Assembly (NCBI RefSeq): GCF_900637955.1
Contig: NZ_LR134476.1
Location: 806,001-870,000, forward strand
Direction of reading: 5' to 3'
Length of the DNA: 64,000 nucleotides
Origin: Trueperella bialowiezensis
GTDB lineage: Bacteria > Actinomycetota > Actinomycetes > Actinomycetales > Actinomycetaceae
Made by a program: the position numbers and the translations under genes. Below are positions 15,110 through 24,741 of this stretch, piece by piece; positions within the stretch are counted from its first letter, which is position 1; every line of letters starts with the position of its first letter. The notes below the pieces were generated by a model that was given only the letters and a program-made list of their open reading frames with translations, was not told the origin of the DNA and ran no database searches.

Positions 15110-15718
15110 TCACTCCTTAATCGGGTTGAACTGTTTTTGGAATTTGTTCTGGCCCACGGTGAAAGTGTTTCCGGTGACTGGCTGGAGAAGCTCTTGAGAT
15201 TCCACCGCCTCACGCGAAACGCGTGCAAGGAACTGGCGGTCTTTTTCTTCCACAAGATAATAGGCATCCCTATTCGAAAACGCGTCTATCGATTGAAACG
15301 TGCCGAAGATGGTTCCCTCGAGCAGGAAAGCGACCCATTCAAACAAGTTCTCTGCTTTCGTCTTTACCTTCGTCCGGTTGAGCGGGTGAATCGTGGTGGC
15401 ACGGGGATGGGCGGCGAGCACCGCAGCGTGAGTCTTTCTCTTTAGGATCTTCCCCTTTGGTCGAACCGGGGTTAATGAGTCGACGTCGATGGGAACACGG
15501 ACCTTGGGGGTCGGCGAGACCTCTATGTTGCCGAGGAGATAGTCGACTGACACGTCGAACAGTGCAGCCATCGCCTGAATATTGACAATATCTGGGGTTC
15601 CCCGCCCTGACTCCCATTTGGACACCGCTTGGCGTGACACCGAGAGCTTTTCAGCAAGCTCGGTTTGTGACAGCCCCGCCTTAGTGCGGAGCTCTTTGAT
15701 TCTTGCGCTAATCTCCAT
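15110..15718 (-). CDS. XRE family transcriptional regulator
   Basis: The first 65 residues are a classic Cro/CI helix-turn-helix (IKELRTKAGLSQTELAEKLSVSRQAVSKWESGRG, in two overlapping pieces) with the DVSVDYLLGN end common in this group. The remaining 135 residues form a different domain with a basic middle (KGKILKRKTHAAVLAAHPRA) and a beta-rich end containing YYLVEEKDRQFLARV; I do not recognise it, though it has the look of a small PH-like or membrane-stress sensing fold. It converges with glpD. No adjacent target gene is obvious, and it marks the left edge of the accessory island. Confidence 0.8.
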   Translation of the reverse strand: MEISARIKELRTKAGLSQTELAEKLSVSRQAVSKWESGRGTPDIVNIQAMAALFDVSVDYLLGNIEVSPTPKVRVPIDVDSLTPVRPKGKILKRKTHAAVLAAHPRATTIHPLNRTKVKTKAENLFEWVAFLLEGTIFGTFQSIDAFSNRDAYYLVEEKDRQFLARVSREAVESQELLQPVTGNTFTVGQNKFQKQFNPIKE

Positions 15719-15875
15719 GATCTTTCACTTCCTCGGCTCATGTACTCTGCTGACGTGCTGATACGTCCAGTTAAGCAACGCCAGCCGTATGAACCAAGCT
15801 TTTTCACGACACCAATCGGCACTACCCCGCTACTCTTCGTTGACGACCAACTCTTCGGCGAAATGACGGCCTCTA

Positions 15876-16091
15876 CTAGCAGAAGTCGCCGGCAAGAACC
15901 CACAAGTTTTCGCGGTTGGGCGTGCCAACCAACGCGATCTGGTAGTCAGGATCAAGTTTGAGCACCCAATAGTCTCCGCTGGTGAACGGAATCCACCGAA
16001 TAAATTTGGGCAGGAAGTCCACTTTGAGCTTGCCGACTTCGCCGTCCACCGGGGTAGCTTCGCCGATCGCTTGTTCGGGCGCGCCGTCAAT
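15876..16091 (-). pseudogene. Lipocalin (Blc-like) fragment
   Basis: Reading the minus strand from 16091 to a TAG at 15876 gives 71 residues containing IGEATPVDGEVGKLKVDFLP, FIRWIPFTSGDYWVLKLDPD and YQIALVGTPNRENLWVL. This is the central barrel of a bacterial outer-layer lipocalin of the Blc type. There is no start codon: a TGA lies directly upstream in frame, so the N-terminal signal peptide and first strands are missing. The C-terminus stops after LWVLAGDFC, where intact lipocalins continue with a conserved helix. It is therefore a remnant broken at both ends, next to the DUF4143 ATPase repeat array. Confidence 0.75.
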
Positions 16092-16160
16092 TCAGCGTAT
16101 CAGTCACGTGAGTTGGATATCGACGACGGCGGAGCACCGGCAAGCGACGAGCGAGCCTGC

Positions 16161-16252
16161 GTGAAAGTGACGAGTGAAACCACTTGAAATTGACGAGTGG
16201 AATCGCTTGAAAGTGACGAGTAGAATGGTTTGAAATTGACGAGTGGAGGTGT
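16161..16252 (+). repeat. Four 23-bp tandem repeats upstream of ATPase 1
   Basis: Four head-to-tail units of exactly 23 bp begin at 16161, 16184, 16207 and 16230. The shared core is GAAAnTGACGAGT followed by a variable GAA(T/C) end. The last unit runs into the GGAGGT ribosome site of the ATPase gene that starts at 16257, so a protein bound here would cover both promoter and translation signals. ATPase 2 has an array of the same number, period and position at 24289-24380 but with a different sequence. Confidence 0.9.
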
Positions 16253-16256
16253 CAAA

Positions 16257-17498
16257 GTGCAGAATCCTCAGGAAAAAGAGACTTTCAAGTATCTTCCGAG
16301 GGTGGCAGATCGCGCGCTTTCAGAAGCTCTGCAGCGCGCTGGCGCTGTTCTTATTGAAGGTCCTAAAGGGTGCGGCAAAACTGAAACCGCTAGGCGAGTT
16401 GCCGCCTCTGAGGTGCGAGTGGATACTGACCCAAATGTCGCAACTGTCATTAATCTCGACCCAAATCTCGTCTTGAATGGATCCACCCCTCGATTACTCG
16501 ATGAATGGCAAGCGTACCCCGTGCTGTGGAACACCGTTCGCAGAGCGGTTGACGACCGTCGCGAGAAGGGCCAATTCATTCTTACCGGATCGACAGCTCC
16601 GGCGGAAAGCGCTGGAAGACACTCGGGAGCGGGCAGATTCGCACGCATAACCATGCAGACAATGAGCTTGTGGGAGACAGGGCACTCCAGCGGAGAAGTA
16701 TCAGTAGCTGCACTACTTCAGGGAGAACCCGCCGCGGCAGAACCTTCCAGTCTGAGTGTGGAGGAATTGGCAGAACGGATAAGTCGGGGCGGCTGGCCAC
16801 ACTATCAGTCCCTTACCGTGTCACAGGCGTTGGCAACCAACAGGGACTATATCCGTACTATTGCCGAGGTCGATATCGCCACGCCCGATGGCCGCACTCG
16901 AAATCCAATCCGAGTCCAAGCATTGTTAAGATCGTTGGCGCGAGGCGTGGGAACAGAAATGGCAGTGACAACAATCGCCGCCGATGCAGATCTCAGCCGT
17001 GACACTGTCCGGGACTATCTTGATGCTCTGGCCAGAATATATATCGCGCAAGATCAGCCCGCATGGTCATTAAGCATGCGATCCAGAACCCCTCTACGAA
17101 AAGCTCCGAAACGCCATCTCGCGGATCCTGCGCTAGCGTTGGCTGCGCTCAACAAGGGGCCAGCTGATCTGCTGCAAAATTTCGAGTATTTCGGGCAGCT
17201 ATTTGAATCGCAAGTCGTCCATGACTTGGGCGTTCTTTCCGGCGAGCAGGTTAGCCATGCCCGCTTGCAGAACGGGTTGGAGGTTGACGCAATCATTGAC
17301 CACCCGGATCAACGCGGACTTTTTGAAATAAAACTGGGCGCCAGCATGGAAGTCGTGAATCGGGCAGCTGATAACTTGAAAGCTTTTTCCGCAGAGATGG
17401 GCGGCAGTAATCGACTCATCGTCGTCACCGCGGGCGGCTACTCGTATTTGCGACCAGACGGTGTGCAAGTCGTTTCGATTGGAGCGCTGGGGCCCTGA
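16257..17498 (+). CDS. AAA ATPase with DUF4143 domain (ATPase 1)
   Basis: This 413-residue protein is of the AAA_14/DUF4143 type. The Walker A motif GPKGCGKTE is near residues 33-42, Walker B is LLDEWQ near 75, and a sensor strand FILTGSTAP follows. The C-terminal DUF4143 part has a PD-(D/E)xK-like arrangement (LEVDAIID, then FEIKLG near residues 355), so a nuclease-like fold is likely; activity is not shown. I chose the GTG at 16257 because GGAGGT lies six bases upstream inside the last 23-bp repeat. These ATPases are widespread in bacteria with unknown role. It is about 35 percent similar by eye to ATPase 2. Confidence 0.88.
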   Translation: MQNPQEKETFKYLPRVADRALSEALQRAGAVLIEGPKGCGKTETARRVAASEVRVDTDPNVATVINLDPNLVLNGSTPRLLDEWQAYPVLWNTVRRAVDDRREKGQFILTGSTAPAESAGRHSGAGRFARITMQTMSLWETGHSSGEVSVAALLQGEPAAAEPSSLSVEELAERISRGGWPHYQSLTVSQALATNRDYIRTIAEVDIATPDGRTRNPIRVQALLRSLARGVGTEMAVTTIAADADLSRDTVRDYLDALARIYIAQDQPAWSLSMRSRTPLRKAPKRHLADPALALAALNKGPADLLQNFEYFGQLFESQVVHDLGVLSGEQVSHARLQNGLEVDAIIDHPDQRGLFEIKLGASMEVVNRAADNLKAFSAEMGGSNRLIVVTAGGYSYLRPDGVQVVSIGALGP

Positions 17499-17556
17499 GA
17501 CCAACACTCAGCTTCCCAGATTCAGAGCTGGTCTTCATATTTCTAAGGTAAACAGT

Positions 17557-17575
17557 AAAACGATCTCGTGAAGAC
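17557..17575. repeat. Single copy of the tRNA-Ala-side repeat motif
   Basis: AAAACGATCTCGTGAAGAC here matches the decayed repeat unit at 25573 (AAACGATCTCGTGAGAC) apart from one inserted base. It lies 58 bp after the ATPase 1 stop codon in a 265-bp gap that otherwise holds nothing I can recognise. It may be a remnant of a third array. Confidence 0.45.
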
Positions 17576-17763
17576 CTGATCTTGCGGTTACTTCATCGGC
17601 AGGGTATGTTCGGTGCTGATAGCCCCGGATAGGTCAATGTCGCGAAACATCGATATACCCCCGGGGCTAGCGCATTTCTTTAGGTTCACTATCCAATCGA
17701 AAATTCCCATTGTGTGCGGCGCTCCTCTTCTTTCGTGATGGTATATACGGCGTTGGTACAGTG

Positions 17764-20628
17764 CTACTCTTCTGCGGCCTGGGCGTAGAGCTCGAAGAGA
17801 TGGGCAACGATGGCGGCTTCACGTGCGGAATCATCCATTTCTGAATAGTCGACGCCGTAGGCGGCTTCCACAGCGCGGTCCAGCTGTTCGTGGGCTCGCG
17901 TGAGCTCCGGATACAGCCAGCTATTATCCGGATCGTACAGATCAGCAAGCGTAGCCTCCGGATATTCCTCGCGGGCATCCAATACTGCCTGCGCTGCGTT
18001 CTCGATTGCTTCCCGCTGCTCGGCTGTGGGATCCGGGAACACGAAATTGTTGTAAACAATCGTGTTGGCATAGCGGTAACGAAGTTCAAGACGGCCGGCT
18101 ACTGCCCTCATGAAAGAGTTATGAAATTGGGAGCACATTACTCCAAAAATAAACAGGGAGTTCGAAGGAATGAAATAGAGCTGGTTTCCCGGAATCATGC
18201 CATTAGCTACAAATCCAAGTGGGATATATCGCCGGCGTTCTGAGGACACCGCGGGCACTGCGATATATGGTTCACTGCCGGCATAGCGGATCTCGTCAAA
18301 TAACCACGGTGTTTCAGCTTTCTTCTGGGTGGCTTTCTTGGTAGATGCAAGTCGCATATCTCGTACGCCTTGGACACGTTCACGGAGAATAGGTGATTTA
18401 GCTATAACGGATCGCGGAGTATCAACAAGCCAGAAGCAATAACGGTCTTTGCCATTAATGAATTCCTGACCCATAGAAAAGGGACGAATCCATTCTTCAA
18501 GATCGGGTTCTGCAGCGAGTACTTGAGCTTTTTCGTCCGGGCTAAGAAGCAGAAAATTGCCTTCGGTCGGTTTTCCGCCCGCTTTCATTTCTGGAACATC
18601 ACTGAGCGGTTTACCCCGGCGTTGGATAAAAACGTCAGGAGCATCGGCGAGATAGGCATTAATATGATCCACCGCGCGGCGAGTGCCAATTTCACGCGCA
18701 GAACCCGCTGCACGCTCTTCCGCCGTCGCTCGCCGGTAATCCCAAAGGTATTTTTCTGTTCGTTCCTTATGAGAGAAACCGATAATGACACAGGTTACCT
18801 GCGCTTGGTCCGTTGCTTCATTCGCCCAGGAAAACGATCGATGCGCGAAGTTGATGGAAATACCCATCTCGAAGAGCGGTTCCCACAGCGGCGCAACCTG
18901 CTGGCCTTGGCAAATCGAGTTGGTGGATACCAGTGCGGCCTCGCACTCTGTACCTTCCATGTATTCCGCGGCTTTCCGATGCCAGCAGGCCACATAATCA
19001 AGTACGCTTCCACCTTTACCGAAGATTGCGAGGCGTTCTTCTTTCTGATCTGCATTCAGCCGTGAGTATCCCAAAAACGGCGGGTTGCCAATAATGTAGT
19101 CGCATTTTTCGGGCGGAAGAATCTCAGCCCAGTCAGTACGCAGGGCATTTCCTTGAACGATATGGGCGGAATCGGATAACGGTAAATCGTCAATCAGCTG
19201 GGTCACGATCGTCTGTGCCTCGATATTCGCCTGCAGTTCGGCAATCCACATGGCCGTTGAGGCGACCGATACCGCGAAGTCGTTAATTTCGATGCCGTAG
19301 AACTGATCGAGCGAGACTTTGAGCGGCGTGATATCACCAAAAGCTAGCTCGGTCTGATCGGTGAGTTCGGAGAGCACTTTGTTTTCCAGCCGACGCAGCG
19401 AGATGTAGGTTTCCGTCAAAAAATTTCCGGAGCCGCAAGCTGGATCAAAGAAAGTAAGGCCTGCGATTTTATCGTGGAAAGCACGCAGCCGATTCTTGCG
19501 TTTCACATCCTGCCCAGCGAATTCAGTGAGGATACTTTGCAGCTCGGCGGTGAGATCATCGAGGAACAACGGATCGATCACCTTGTGAATATTTTCCGGG
19601 CTTGTGTAGTGCATCCCGCCGCTGGCACGCGTTTCCGGGTTCAGTGTGGATTCAAAAACGCCGCCAAAAATCGTGGGCGAAATTTCCGCCCAGTTCGTAT
19701 CCCGCGACACCCGATTGACCAAGAGATCATAGAGTTCTTCGGTGAACAGCGGAATCTCAATCGGGCCAGATGTTCGCGAATCGAACAGCCCACCGTTGAC
19801 ATAGGGGAAGGCTTTCAGATCCGCACTCAGATATGGATCGCGTTCATCTTCCGGGGTGTCGAGCACCTGGAAAAGTTCAAGAAGGCGGGTGCGAACCTGA
19901 TCGTGCGGGGTATTGGCAAGGAAGTAGTGGAAAGAATCTTTGGCGAAAATTCCGGCGTCTTCCGCAAACAAGCAAAACACGAGCCGCACGCACAACACGT
20001 TGAGAGAGTGTTGACTGCGTTCACTATCCGGATCGATGTACTGCTCGCGCAAACCGTGATACAGCTCGCCGATAAGAACACCGGCATCCATCGAGACCTG
20101 TTCTTCCCGGTAGCGCCGCGTGTTAGCCGGGTTGATAAGAAAATCGAGGAGATGGTACTGCTCCGGGAGCTCCTCAAGCCGGAAAGAAAGATAGTTCTCT
20201 TCCGGTTTCACCTGATCCAGATTGTGGATGCGGAATTCCTCAAAATTACAGACGATAATGTAATCCGGCCGCTGCGAATTAGGAAGCGAATTCGCATAGT
20301 TCAAAGCCTGCTCAAAAGGTGTGACCATCTGGCCCTGGCGCATTTCTGGACGGTCAAGATCGACGCCGATCGATTTCTGTTCGATCAGAGTCTTCGCATC
20401 GGGGATGATCACGTCAATAAAACCGCGCCGGGAGGTTCCTTCCTCGTAGCGCACGCCCGTGACAGTTTGATCTTCCGGCACGCCCATCACTGAACGCAGC
20501 AGATTGCCCCAGAACTGCTGAGTATCGCCCTTCTCATAGCCGCGACCACGCCACGTTTGCGCAAATGCTTGCGCATTGTGGCGCCGCTGAGTTTCGGTGA
20601 GCGTTGAACCTGTAGCCTGTGCACTCAT
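17764..20628 (-). CDS. MmeI-like type IIL restriction-modification enzyme
   Basis: One polypeptide of 954 residues that should both cut and methylate DNA. The N-terminal 150 residues carry a PD-(D/E)xK pattern (FIDVIIPDAKTLIEQK, ExK near residue 84). A helical spacer follows. The adenine methyltransferase domain has motif I FFDPACGSGNFL near 394 and motif IV IGNPPFLGYS near 514. The C-terminal 350 residues should be the target recognition domain and helper region, which set specificity for both activities. Length is normal for MmeI relatives, and no frameshift is seen. It stands alone, with no separate restriction gene, in the island between the two DUF4143 ATPases. Confidence 0.85.
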   Translation of the reverse strand: MSAQATGSTLTETQRRHNAQAFAQTWRGRGYEKGDTQQFWGNLLRSVMGVPEDQTVTGVRYEEGTSRRGFIDVIIPDAKTLIEQKSIGVDLDRPEMRQGQMVTPFEQALNYANSLPNSQRPDYIIVCNFEEFRIHNLDQVKPEENYLSFRLEELPEQYHLLDFLINPANTRRYREEQVSMDAGVLIGELYHGLREQYIDPDSERSQHSLNVLCVRLVFCLFAEDAGIFAKDSFHYFLANTPHDQVRTRLLELFQVLDTPEDERDPYLSADLKAFPYVNGGLFDSRTSGPIEIPLFTEELYDLLVNRVSRDTNWAEISPTIFGGVFESTLNPETRASGGMHYTSPENIHKVIDPLFLDDLTAELQSILTEFAGQDVKRKNRLRAFHDKIAGLTFFDPACGSGNFLTETYISLRRLENKVLSELTDQTELAFGDITPLKVSLDQFYGIEINDFAVSVASTAMWIAELQANIEAQTIVTQLIDDLPLSDSAHIVQGNALRTDWAEILPPEKCDYIIGNPPFLGYSRLNADQKEERLAIFGKGGSVLDYVACWHRKAAEYMEGTECEAALVSTNSICQGQQVAPLWEPLFEMGISINFAHRSFSWANEATDQAQVTCVIIGFSHKERTEKYLWDYRRATAEERAAGSAREIGTRRAVDHINAYLADAPDVFIQRRGKPLSDVPEMKAGGKPTEGNFLLLSPDEKAQVLAAEPDLEEWIRPFSMGQEFINGKDRYCFWLVDTPRSVIAKSPILRERVQGVRDMRLASTKKATQKKAETPWLFDEIRYAGSEPYIAVPAVSSERRRYIPLGFVANGMIPGNQLYFIPSNSLFIFGVMCSQFHNSFMRAVAGRLELRYRYANTIVYNNFVFPDPTAEQREAIENAAQAVLDAREEYPEATLADLYDPDNSWLYPELTRAHEQLDRAVEAAYGVDYSEMDDSAREAAIVAHLFELYAQAAEE

Positions 20629-20777
20629 AGCCCCATGTTAACCGCAGGCTCCGACATTAATGTGCACCGCAGGACAACGTCGTTGTACTTTATCTGCTCT
20701 CAGTGGCGGATATCCTCACCGACATCGACGTCGAAAACACCTACCGCTATGACTAGCGCGGACATCAAATATTTGCC

Positions 20778-21698
20778 CTAGCTTTCCTCAACGATCTCAA
20801 ACACATCGGGGTCGCTTGGCAGATACAGCACATCAACCGGGCCGCGGCGCAACTTATGCATATCAACCAGTGGCACAACCTCCCGCAGGGAGCGCTGCTT
20901 AATCTCCCCGCGCTGATCTAGGAACTGAACCGTCACGTTAACTTGCGGGTTTTCGTTTTTGTACACGCCCGTCTGGCGGTAATCAACAATCTCACCCGGA
21001 CTCGCCACCCCATACAGCGTGAGCTCGTGGGCTTGGCGAGCGTTCTTCACGCTGGAAAGGCCGTTGCCGCCACTAAGGATAAGGATAAATAATACGAAGA
21101 CCAAGAAAATGACCGGCGGCATGAGCCAATTCGATAGCGGACACAAAAAGCGCAGCCCGACCCCCTGTCCATAAAGGTGATACTCAACCAGGAACAGGCC
21201 CACGGAATAGGCAATGTTAAACACGGCCCACCTAAGGTAGCCGACCGAGAATTTAGGCGTAAATTCAGCGGTATCTACGACGTAGGGCGGATTGTATCCG
21301 TTTTGATTAAGCCGAAGATTAATCCGGTTTCCCCGGGCGTATCTGCGCAGTTGAGGTTGCTCATCGACGACGTCGAGATCCCGCTCTATCTTGGAGCCCG
21401 CAAGGTTCTGAAAGCGCACACGCAACCTGAACTTAGGCTTGCCCTTTTCATCACCGGCCTGTATAGATCTGATAATTTCCCCGATCACGGGAACGCCCGT
21501 TTCACGCAGCTTGCGATGAGCCTTGGCCTTCCTATACGGATCGAATCCCAACATCACGAGAAACACCGTGAAAATCGTCCACATCACCACCCCGATCACG
21601 AAAAGGACAACCGCGAATTCGGTGGTGGAATACGGCCGGTCATCCATCAGGAGAAAAAATAGCGGGAATATGTAGAGGAAAAAGAAGACGAGTAACAC
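20778..21698 (-). CDS. DUF3592-like membrane protein with two repeats
   Basis: This 306-residue protein has two pairs of membrane helices (residues about 1-55 and 165-215). Each pair is followed by a beta-rich cytoplasmic or external module: GVPVIGEIIRSIQAGDEKGK...VRFQN and GVASPGEIVDYRQTGVYKNE...VQFLD. Both modules end with a run like LRRYARGNRINLRL or LRRGPVDVLYLPSDP, the pattern seen in DUF3592 proteins, so the protein is an internal duplication. Function is unknown for the family. It lies 149 bp upstream of the restriction enzyme on the same strand. Confidence 0.7.
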   Translation of the reverse strand: MLLVFFFLYIFPLFFLLMDDRPYSTTEFAVVLFVIGVVMWTIFTVFLVMLGFDPYRKAKAHRKLRETGVPVIGEIIRSIQAGDEKGKPKFRLRVRFQNLAGSKIERDLDVVDEQPQLRRYARGNRINLRLNQNGYNPPYVVDTAEFTPKFSVGYLRWAVFNIAYSVGLFLVEYHLYGQGVGLRFLCPLSNWLMPPVIFLVFVLFILILSGGNGLSSVKNARQAHELTLYGVASPGEIVDYRQTGVYKNENPQVNVTVQFLDQRGEIKQRSLREVVPLVDMHKLRRGPVDVLYLPSDPDVFEIVEES

Positions 21699-21897
21699 CT
21701 CAGTGAGCCCTTCCTCTCCTCGTATCTGCGCGATGCTGTTCGCGCCGATGCGGGGAGTCTTCTGTTCATACGCGCCATACGCGCCCCTTTGGGTGACGAG
21801 CTATTTGCCCATTCTCCACTTTGTAGTACTTCCAGTTTACTCGAGCGTTCACGCTAGGACTAGACCTCGGTTCACAACTCAGCGCAGAGCGTGCAGA

Positions 21898-22905
21898 CTA
21901 CTGTTCGTAGGGCAGGAAGTCATGCTCAGTAAACTCGAGAGGCCGGCCGGTGGCGTTATCAACGGTGAGGATCTCGCCGCTTTCGGTGCCGACGATCTGC
22001 ACGTCCATACCCACCGGCTTGTCGATCAGTGGCATAACGGCTGGCTCGATGAGAATGATGCTCTCCCAAGCCACTACGGCAGAATTTCGCGGATCAGCTA
22101 AGTACGCGTCCGTGTCTCGCGAAGAAAGGAAGCGCCAACCGTTATCAGCCGAATTCATGGGTTCTTCCCGGAAACACCATTTCATGCGCGCATGTCCATC
22201 AAGAATGCTTTGCGAGATAATCGAAGCGCCCAGTTTAGCGATGTTCTGCCCGCGCATCGTGGCCTGATAGCGCTGGGCTTGCGAAGCGACTGGAACGCCG
22301 TCGTCGGAAAGCTGGTCCGCAGACCGACAGCCGTTGGCTGCCGGCTGTTGCGTGCCGCTCCCAAGTTCAGGATGGTACTTGTTGAGCGCAACTCGCAGTG
22401 CCTCTCCACCGCGATCTTCAATCACCTCTCGCACTGTCAGCCCTGCCGAGTTGGGCGTATCAACATCGGTCGCCGAGGCGATCGCCTGACCAAGAAAATC
22501 CATCACAGACCCGCCCGGCGCTGAAAGACCCCGGCTAACAAGCGAAAACAGCGCAGAATTATTCCATCGACTCTCGCGGTGTTCGAGTGATGTGCCTCGT
22601 TTCATCAAGGCGAGTCCGAGGTCACCGGCTTCTGGCGCGTCCATGAGTCGAGGTGCCAGGAGGTGAAACTCGTTATTGCCGGCATAATCAACGACGTTAA
22701 CCGGCGCGCCGGCGTCGAGCATGTCGCAGGCCAGTTCAAAGTGGCGCCCGGCAATGGCATAGCGAAGGATGCTCGACCCACCACTTGTGCGAGCGGCAGC
22801 AATCTGCTCGAAATTCTTCCCCTCGCTGGCAAGCTTGGCCTCAAAATCAACGCGGCTACCCTCTGTGAGCACCGTGTAGTAATCAGCATTATGAATGTCG
22901 ACCAT
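21898..22905 (-). CDS. Ankyrin-repeat protein with C-terminal DUF2185 (immunity-like) domain
   Basis: Residues 35-160 show ankyrin-type repeats (SSILRYAIAGRHFELACDML and DAGAPVNVVDYAGNNEFHLL). After a linker near residues 185-210, the last 110 residues (MKWCFREEPMNSADNGWRFL, then DPRNSAVVAWESIILIEPAV and KPVGMDVQIV) match the DUF2185 pattern found in immunity proteins of polymorphic toxin systems. This suggests an antidote that binds a toxin or partner through its ankyrin half. No toxin gene with a matching layout is next to it. An AAAGAG site precedes the ATG. The function is inferred from family patterns only. Confidence 0.72.
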   Translation of the reverse strand: MVDIHNADYYTVLTEGSRVDFEAKLASEGKNFEQIAAARTSGGSSILRYAIAGRHFELACDMLDAGAPVNVVDYAGNNEFHLLAPRLMDAPEAGDLGLALMKRGTSLEHRESRWNNSALFSLVSRGLSAPGGSVMDFLGQAIASATDVDTPNSAGLTVREVIEDRGGEALRVALNKYHPELGSGTQQPAANGCRSADQLSDDGVPVASQAQRYQATMRGQNIAKLGASIISQSILDGHARMKWCFREEPMNSADNGWRFLSSRDTDAYLADPRNSAVVAWESIILIEPAVMPLIDKPVGMDVQIVGTESGEILTVDNATGRPLEFTEHDFLPYEQ

Positions 22906-22988
22906 CGTTTTGCTCTTTCGTTGCTACCACGGACTGAAGATTCGGATAAGTTCACATACGAGACTCAGTAGTGTGTAATTGAAGGCAG

Positions 22989-24233
22989 TTAGAGCCCCAG
23001 TGCCGATAGTGGGAAAGTGACGCATCCTGATCCCAAGTTCGCGATCGGACCGGTTCCGGTGATAACGGCACTGAATGCGGGAGCGGGACGGTCGATCTGC
23101 TTGATCGCCTTCTGGAGACTTTCGTAGCCAGTCTGAATCTGGCCGGCACCAAGTTTGACTTCGATCGCTGCCCAGCTATCGCCCGGCAGCTCAATGACGA
23201 CGTCGATCTCGTGCCCATTAGAGTCGCGGTAGTGGGATACCTGGCCGTTGACTTCCTGCGCATAAACACGCAGATCATGGGTTACGGCCGATTCAAACAG
23301 AAACCCTAACGTTCTCGTGTCAGCTAACAAGTCAGCGCTTTCAGCACCAAGCAGTCGAGCCGCCAGACTTGGGTCAGCTAGATGATATTTCGCTGATTGC
23401 CTCAGCCTAGCCTTCGAACGTAAAGCAGTTGCCATTGCTGGTTGACGCTCAACAACAAATAGCCTTTCAAACAACTGCAAGAAATGACTGATTGTTTCGG
23501 GGGCTGGGCTCGACAATGTGGCGCTAATGTCTTTGCGTAACGTTGGGACGCTGACCTCGGTAGAAATATTACGCGCCAATGAAATCAGCAGGGTCTTCAG
23601 CACAATCGGTTCGCGTCGGATCTCCGCCAACCGGTGAACATCAACTTCGATGATGTTATTGATGTACTCGTCAAGAAGAGCATTTGTGGCTTCTCGAGGC
23701 ATCGAAATTAAACCCGGAAAACCTGGAGTCAGCAACAGATCGACCACATCATCCAACGTGGGTCTGGCCAAATCTGCGGCCACTTCGGGTTCAGAAAGCA
23801 GATTCCGAAACGAGACCTGAGGCTGCAGCCCTGCCTTTTCTGCCCACGTCATGGTGTACTGGCGAATGCGAGCAAATCTGCCAGCGCCCGTGTGCCGCCG
23901 CACGTCGTCGGTTGGAGTTGCAGATCCGGCTAAAATGAATTGACCAGGCGTTCGGCCAAAGTCAACTTCTCTACGGACCATATTCCAAATCTGAGGGTAT
24001 AACTGCCACTCGTCCAATAACCGAGGCCGTTCACCATTCAATAATTGCCGGAGGTCAATCTCGGCCAGAAGCGCGGTATCTGGGTCGTCAAAAAACACGG
24101 TGGACTGGGCAAATTGCATCCCCGTCGTCGTCTTCCCACTGGCGCGCGGCCCCTCAATGACCACTGCTCCCACGGATTTCAGCAGCCGACTGAGCCGCTG
24201 ATCTATAACTCTAGGTAAGTAATCATCACTCAT
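22989..24233 (-). CDS. AAA ATPase with DUF4143 domain (ATPase 2)
   Basis: This 414-residue protein has the same layout as ATPase 1: Walker A GPRASGKTT near residues 27-35, Walker B LLDEWQ near 72, sensor strand FILAGSATPTDD, and a DUF4143 C-terminal part with HLADPSLAARLL, FLFESAVTHDLRVYA and a nuclease-like pair IDVVIE and AIEVKLG. The ATG at 24233 is chosen by alignment with ATPase 1; a GTG six codons upstream is also open. Four 23-bp repeats lie 55 bp upstream. It points towards the ankyrin-DUF2185 gene. The two ATPases differ enough to be separate acquisitions rather than a recent duplication. Confidence 0.88.
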   Translation of the reverse strand: MSDDYLPRVIDQRLSRLLKSVGAVVIEGPRASGKTTTGMQFAQSTVFFDDPDTALLAEIDLRQLLNGERPRLLDEWQLYPQIWNMVRREVDFGRTPGQFILAGSATPTDDVRRHTGAGRFARIRQYTMTWAEKAGLQPQVSFRNLLSEPEVAADLARPTLDDVVDLLLTPGFPGLISMPREATNALLDEYINNIIEVDVHRLAEIRREPIVLKTLLISLARNISTEVSVPTLRKDISATLSSPAPETISHFLQLFERLFVVERQPAMATALRSKARLRQSAKYHLADPSLAARLLGAESADLLADTRTLGFLFESAVTHDLRVYAQEVNGQVSHYRDSNGHEIDVVIELPGDSWAAIEVKLGAGQIQTGYESLQKAIKQIDRPAPAFSAVITGTGPIANLGSGCVTFPLSALGL

Positions 24234-24288
24234 TGGTTGACGGACTTCCACATCCCGACCGTATCAAGTAAAACGGCTGGCAACAAGC

Positions 24289-24380
24289 TCTAGACCGTGA
24301 TTTGCAGCGTGTCTAGACCGTGATTTGCAGCGTGTCTAGACCGTGATTTGCAGGATACCTAGACTGCATTTTGCAGGCAC
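24289..24380 (-). repeat. Four 23-bp tandem repeats upstream of ATPase 2
   Basis: Units start at 24289, 24312, 24335 and 24358 on the plus strand. Units 1 and 2 are identical, unit 3 differs only in its last bases, and unit 4 is more decayed. The core is TCTAGACCGTGATTTGCAG on the plus strand, which reads CTGCAAATCACGGTCTAGA towards the gene. The number of units, their 23-bp period and their place upstream of a DUF4143 gene equal those at 16161-16252, while the sequence is different. Confidence 0.9.
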
Positions 24381-24453
24381 TTGCTGCGTCCAGAGCTTTC
24401 TTCCAGCCCAAAACCAACACCAAATAACCTATAGTCCCTGATTGAGAGGTTGT

Positions 24454-24741
24454 TTAACGGTTGTAGATCGCATCTCTTCGACCGATTGAGAAGACTTCAA
24501 TCGTGATGATGTCGTCGTGGATGAGTGCAAGGATTCGATACGAGCCAACGCGGTAACGCCACTCGCCCGAGCGATTAGCGGTCAACCCTTTGCCGAAGGC
24601 ACGCGGATCAGCGCATCCATCGAGGTTGTTCTTAATCCATGTTGCAAGAATCCTCGCATCGAACCGATGCATCTTCTTCAATTGTTTGCGCGCACGCGCA
24701 GTAAGCTCAACACGCCACACAACGTTCCGCGATTCCGTCAT
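24454..24741 (-). CDS. RelE/ParE family toxin
   Basis: This 95-residue protein has the RelE fold pattern: WRVELTARARKQLKKMHRF at the N-terminus, the central GLTANRSGEWRYRVGSYRIL with the Arg residues that position mRNA in the ribosomal A site, and IEVFSIGRRDAIYNR at the end. RelE-type toxins cleave mRNA at the ribosome; ParE-type relatives poison gyrase, and the GEWRYRVGSYRI segment with the final Y favours RelE. Its start overlaps the antitoxin stop by four bases (ATGA). Confidence 0.9.
   Translation of the reverse strand: MTESRNVVWRVELTARARKQLKKMHRFDARILATWIKNNLDGCADPRAFGKGLTANRSGEWRYRVGSYRILALIHDDIITIEVFSIGRRDAIYNR

Follow-up and report, generated by a model that had tools for sequence, protein, structure and literature searches.

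Private tandem arrays upstream of DUF4143 ATPase-nuclease genes and their covariation with the winged-helix recognition helix

Plasmid Rep proteins and archaeal Orc1/Cdc6 are winged-helix readers of DNA, Rep acting on iterons and Orc1/Cdc6 on ORB sites. Among defence genes, PDC-S01 is a phage defence candidate which, in the available part of PMC12988326, is described as still unvalidated and without a known mechanism. That paper ranks it fourth in frequency among the defence systems of prokaryotes and counts about 29,500 occurrences in bacteria and 10,000 in archaea (PMC12988326). Here we analyze genes matching this candidate in a 64-kb stretch of DNA (the window), together with the tandem arrays that precede them and their homologues in other bacteria.

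Arrays and ATPase-nuclease genes in the window

An earlier note on this DNA had described two 23-bp arrays at two DUF4143 ATPases, and its coordinates, starts and strands were all correct. The features are the following.

16140 to 16162, plus strand: degenerate fifth, distal unit of array 1 (extent of the lag-23 segment)
16161 to 16252, plus strand: array 1, four 23-bp units with core GAAAnTGACGAGTnGAA (TRF, lag scan)
16163, 16186, 16209 and 16232, plus strand: core starts of array 1
16257 to 17498, plus strand: W1, ATPase-nuclease 1, with AAA_14, winged helix and DUF4143 PD-(D/E)xK domain (Pfam, AF2, PADLOC)
16998 to 17036, plus strand: recognition helix of the W1 winged helix, residues 248-260 (DSSP of the AF2 model)
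17082 to 17495, plus strand: PD-(D/E)xK nuclease domain of W1, with E317, D344, E357 and K359 (fold matches, conservation)
22989 to 24233, minus strand: W2, ATPase-nuclease 2, architecture as W1 (Pfam, PADLOC)
24289 to 24380, minus strand: array 2, four 23-bp units with core CAAATCACGGTCTAGA (TRF, lag scan)

Four units were indeed present in each array, as the note had counted, and array 1 has in addition the degenerate fifth at about 16140-16162. The last unit of array 1 reaches the ribosome-binding site of W1; in array 2, three units are identical and the distal one is degenerate. TRF called period 23 at 16162-16247 and 24289-24376, and a lag-23 scan of the whole window exceeded a score of 25 only at 16140-16252 (55.4) and 24289-24377 (52.8). 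The top lag-23 score in 100 shuffled windows was 17.6, which upholds the claim that the arrays are not due to chance. The remaining strong repeats of period 15-35 in the window were all multiples of three, as in coding sequence. When placed in one register, both arrays have [C/G]AAA at positions 1-4 and ACG at positions 8-10; the AAA tract followed by ACG is thus borne out, and the description of the two arrays as unrelated has to be corrected.

The genome contains exactly three DUF4143 genes and a 23-bp array was found at 3/3 of them, the third gene (W3, L003; G000:C1:1047015-1048271, outside the window) having an array that runs up to its start codon. The unit of array 2 has no copy elsewhere in the genome at up to 3 mismatches, and the W3 unit is absent from the genome outside its own array. 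A degenerate-pattern search with the W1 core gave one genomic match beyond array 1, and the backwards control also gave one.

W1 and W2 matched PF13173 (AAA_14) and PF13635 (DUF4143) above the curated cut-offs (46.6/41.3 and 95.8/109.2 bits), with no match to PF01637 at E 0.01 and no Rep family, Pfam giving AAA_14 and DUF4143 only. The PADLOC model of PDC-S01 covered the whole protein in both cases (W1, E 1.7e-65, residues 11-406; W2, E 9.7e-66, residues 1-412), and this model (PDLC04790) was matched by all three proteins of the genome and by 80/80 proteins of alignment A2. The AlphaFold2 model of W1 (pLDDT 90.6) comprises an AAA core, a winged helix at about residues 206-275 and a PD-(D/E)xK domain. 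Best fold matches of the AAA core plus winged helix were 2qen (Z 14.7) and 2fna (Z 12.8) over about 245 residues, followed by CED-4 and NLRs at Z 11-12, with Apaf-1 also near; this part of the model also resembles Orc1/Cdc6 on origin DNA (2qby). The C-terminal domain has the fold of Can2, Card1 and McrC (Z 8-9), with NucC and DdmD lower.

The surroundings of the two genes (15110-24741) look like a small defence-like island, in which a full-length MmeI-type IIG restriction-modification gene (17764-20628) and the gene of an Imm33 protein (21898-22905) lie between W1 and W2, and which a ParE-type toxin (24454-24741) closes after W2.

Prevalence, period and anatomy of the array

The first survey comprised 80 loci drawn via an alignment of the genome's three DUF4143 proteins and covered Actinomycetota, Bacteroidota, Cyanobacteria, Bacillota, Pseudomonadota, Saccharimonadia, Gemmatimonadota and others. 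Within 200 bp upstream of these homologues, the best lag of 8-60 was 23 in 62 cases, 46 in 14 and another value in 4. At lag 23 the mean match was 0.45, compared with about 0.26, and the signal recurred at 46 and 69; the downstream regions of the same 80 homologues gave no lag-23 signal.

In the wider DUF4143 family the array has a period of 23, or of 22 in one set of clades. An array of period 22 or 23 bp with a score above 18 precedes 139/202 AAA_14-DUF4143 genes, against 0/286 neighbouring genes, the latter being other genes of the same loci cleaned of unrecognised family genes and divergent neighbours. The earlier note had named two outcomes that would make the pairing accidental, namely that most DUF4143 genes lack arrays or that arrays occur equally upstream of unrelated genes, and the pairing survived both. 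Among about 80 further genes, the array was present in 34/42 of the genes' own clade and in 11/37 of more distant members, and the members of the family that lack an array make up roughly one quarter to one third, a Thermus gene included. The latter is the T. thermophilus pTT27 DUF4143 gene, probably TT_P0211, which is listed as 6.6-fold up with a plasmid (PMC4406477); it was rejected as support because it has no upstream array. A few clear PF01637 ATPase genes were also checked, and they had no convincing 22/23-bp array, only one low-complexity stretch.

On the protein tree, the period (22 or 23) changes 6 times, against 14.5 in shuffles (minimum 12); therefore, array period follows protein clade. 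One genome (G140) has at least 23 DUF4143 genes, and about 19/20 of those examined each possess a differently worded array. Numbers above 20 were also seen in G126, G428 and G429, and in G423 several DUF4143 genes stand in a row (C1:1761598-1767229).

In a registered unit, positions 2-4 form an A/T tract and positions 6-13 a specific core, while the spacer at about 14-20 is relaxed. Unit direction relative to the gene is constant (90:13 in 103 arrays, relatives left out), the number of units per array has its mode at 4 and ranges from 2 to 12 in the unit-count survey, and the end of the last unit lies at a median of 20 bp upstream of the start codon. A -10-like hexamer was found in the last spacer in 18% of cases against 2% expected, a modest enrichment, and it was not enriched upstream of the array; this difference weakly suggests that the promoter may lie within the array. 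Presence, period, position and direction of the array, as well as the privacy of the W2 and W3 units in their genome, were all computed here.

Some arrays depart from this plan. Prevotellaceae arrays (L028, L043, L081) have 10-15 units, far beyond the usual four, while in Corynebacterium and related genomes (L014, L015, L018, L005) two unit types alternate as ABAB, giving a 46-bp higher-order period. Two divergent DUF4143 genes (L120 and L125, G140:C3) have one 22-bp array common to both, which probably belongs to L125, since its direction matches other 22-bp arrays such as that of L103.

Covariation between recognition helix and unit

We also ranked protein columns by how well residue identity foretells the similarity of units once overall identity is held constant, and D249 came 1st, R248 4th and S247 12th. 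These columns, which covary with unit bases, correspond to Ser-Arg-Asp (residues 247-249) in W1. Mutual information (MI), with units registered from DNA alone, gave R248 and unit position 6 as the top pair (z 7.1), R248 and position 7 as the third (z 6.6) and D249 and position 9 at z 5.8. Residue 248 is associated with G7 in 49/49 cases when it is Arg and in 11/11 when it is Lys (60/60 together), and with Pro, Asp or Asn at 248 position 7 is mostly C or A. As for residue 249, Glu or Asp goes with C9 (27/39), Arg with G9 (9/11) and Pro or Thr with A9 (20/22). The resulting residue-to-base table is chemically sensible.

The same relation was visible in single genes. An SRPT helix goes with TGTAAA in both Bacteroidota and Saccharimonadia (L076, 57% identity to L028), whereas L074, closer to L028 overall (66% identity) but with an SRNT helix, has the unit TGCACAA; new genes with SRPT (L260 and L300) again showed GTAAA. 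Across phyla, L180 (Actinomycetota, TRQT) and L223 (Bacteroidota, TRAA), at 56% identity, have a common GTCCAT unit core. Among new genes, G7 was present in 10/14 with Arg or Lys at 248 against 5/21 of the others (p=0.007), which is below the at least 90% predicted beforehand; in two of the four Arg/Lys genes without G7, the register was unreliable. Independent contrasts all pointed in the same direction but were few (median p 0.125), and phylogeny is not fully removable. Unregistered similarity measures returned noise, and a window-of-9 similarity measure without register gave a weak helix signal only.

E317, D344, E357 and K359 are kept in 132-134 of 135 array-bearing genes and the Walker residues are invariant or nearly so. 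Period-clade tie, helix-unit covariation and this catalytic invariance were computed here as well. The expectation that the repeat covaries with the C-terminal region held for the recognition helix of the winged helix and failed for the nuclease. The proposal that the ATPase recognizes its own iteron is well supported by comparison, through array prevalence and helix-unit covariation, and it would mean that an NB-ARC-like ATPase contains a winged helix able to read bases.

Explanations for the array and comparison with known systems

The explanation that we favour, and hold to be likely from the sequence comparisons, is a stand-alone STAND-like ATPase-nuclease whose winged helix would read its own private array, with autorepression and a dormant store that would be freed on invasion. 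As recognition-helix changes go with repeat changes, the most likely reading is that every protein binds, and controls, the gene that encodes it. The gene would be a self-contained pair of an ATPase-nuclease and a cis array, in which some four like-oriented sites of 22 or 23 bp would span the promoter and leader and the first recognition-helix residues would meet unit bases 6-10. With several protomers bound next to one another on the array, the promoter would be shut; such autorepression is the simplest consequence, considering that the array probably covers promoter and leader. The array-bound protein may also be a dormant DNA-bound store, a natural corollary of a stand-alone gene with an intact nuclease. 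If invasion released the protein or altered its nucleotide state, expression would go up and the ATPase-nuclease would be free to act, and joint drift of helix and unit would keep the paralogues of one genome from cross-reacting. We infer physical binding, repression, release, nuclease action and an immune role.

Other readings were weighed against the same data. The array could mainly be a scaffold for DNA-templated activation, on which about four STAND-like protomers would assemble in a set order and at a set spacing and so turn the nuclease on, promoter control being a lesser role. The nearest folds (archaeal STAND-type ATPases, NLRs, CED-4, Apaf-1) act as oligomers, the unit mode of 4, constant direction and exact spacing would suit such an assembly, and catalytic residues are invariant in array-bearing genes; however, the array appears to lie at the promoter of its own gene, away from candidate target DNA, and NB-ARC winged helices are not usually base readers, and we consider this reading possible, if rather doubtful. 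A host regulator binding the array in place of the ATPase would be compatible with array presence alone, but paralogues within one genome have different arrays, and unit and period track the ATPase clade and recognition helix across phyla, which makes it improbable. We consider slightly less probable still that these are iterons of replication or maintenance, the AAA-winged-helix protein being an initiator or segregation factor of a former mobile element: the likeness to Orc1/Cdc6 on origin DNA (2qby) and an iteron-like 22-23 bp period adjoining the gene would fit, but the genes are mostly chromosomal, among mixed housekeeping genes and with no replication partner, are rare in viral contigs and phages, and keep an invariant nuclease site.

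Functionless slippage repeats kept by chance were given a negligible weight. Some arrays are nearly perfect with at least 10 units, as slippage would produce, but the same exact period occurs in many phyla, and the lags of the homologues, the 0/286 controls and the far lower shuffled windows rule this reading out; moreover, single units of cyanobacterial arrays are conserved individually between species, and the arrays are therefore not merely fresh slippage. Coding repeats were rejected because neither 22 nor 23 is divisible by 3, unlike the periods of the other strong window repeats in the range 15-30. Foreign target sites were also rejected, the exact W2 unit being absent from viral contigs and array 2 unmatched in plasmids, as were a phage-borne gene (only 1 viral contig and 7 phage records) and a conserved partner gene (the 113 neighbours included none, though 6 of them are further DUF4143 genes).

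More tentatively, a large share of PDC-S01 might consist of "self-addressed" STAND nucleases, in which a private array would both silence the gene and template the oligomer that arms the nuclease, with the residue-to-base code separating dozens of paralogues. The arrays behind this possibility are those of bacterial genes. Because the cis element is constant and comes with a residue-to-base code, it names a DNA site for many PDC-S01 genes at once. The array code lets paralogues be distinguished and puts binding, repression and activation within reach of simple assays, and the family is a natural set of protein-site pairs for studies of DNA recognition.

W1 and W2 resemble PDC-S01 as presented in the available part of PMC12988326, with AAA_14 and DUF4143, an ATPase fused to PD-(D/E)xK. 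An array for PDC-S01 is described neither in the available parts of PMC12988326 and PMC13356809 nor in the other open papers searched, preprints and subscription papers being outside the search. PABY2304 (2qen) and SSO1545 (2fna), both PF01637, have in common with W1 the arrangement of AAA core and winged helix; PF01637 STAND-type ATPases differ in that W1 and W2 do not match this family and that the few such genes checked lack a convincing array. Can2, Card1, McrC, NucC and DdmD are similar in the fold of the C-terminal PD-(D/E)xK domain, whereas control of the nuclease would here lie with a STAND-like AAA core and winged helix and, in defence nucleases, lies with CARF, McrB or cyclic nucleotides. 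Rep with its iterons and Orc1/Cdc6 with ORB sites are similar in having a winged-helix reader, a putative one in the DUF4143 proteins, directional tandem sites by the reader's own gene and plausible autoregulation, while the DUF4143 gene is chromosomal and stand-alone, carries a nuclease domain, has no replication partner and belongs to another family. In its working the DUF4143 pair would resemble autoregulated iterons, and by the features tested it is neither a Rep nor an ORB system.
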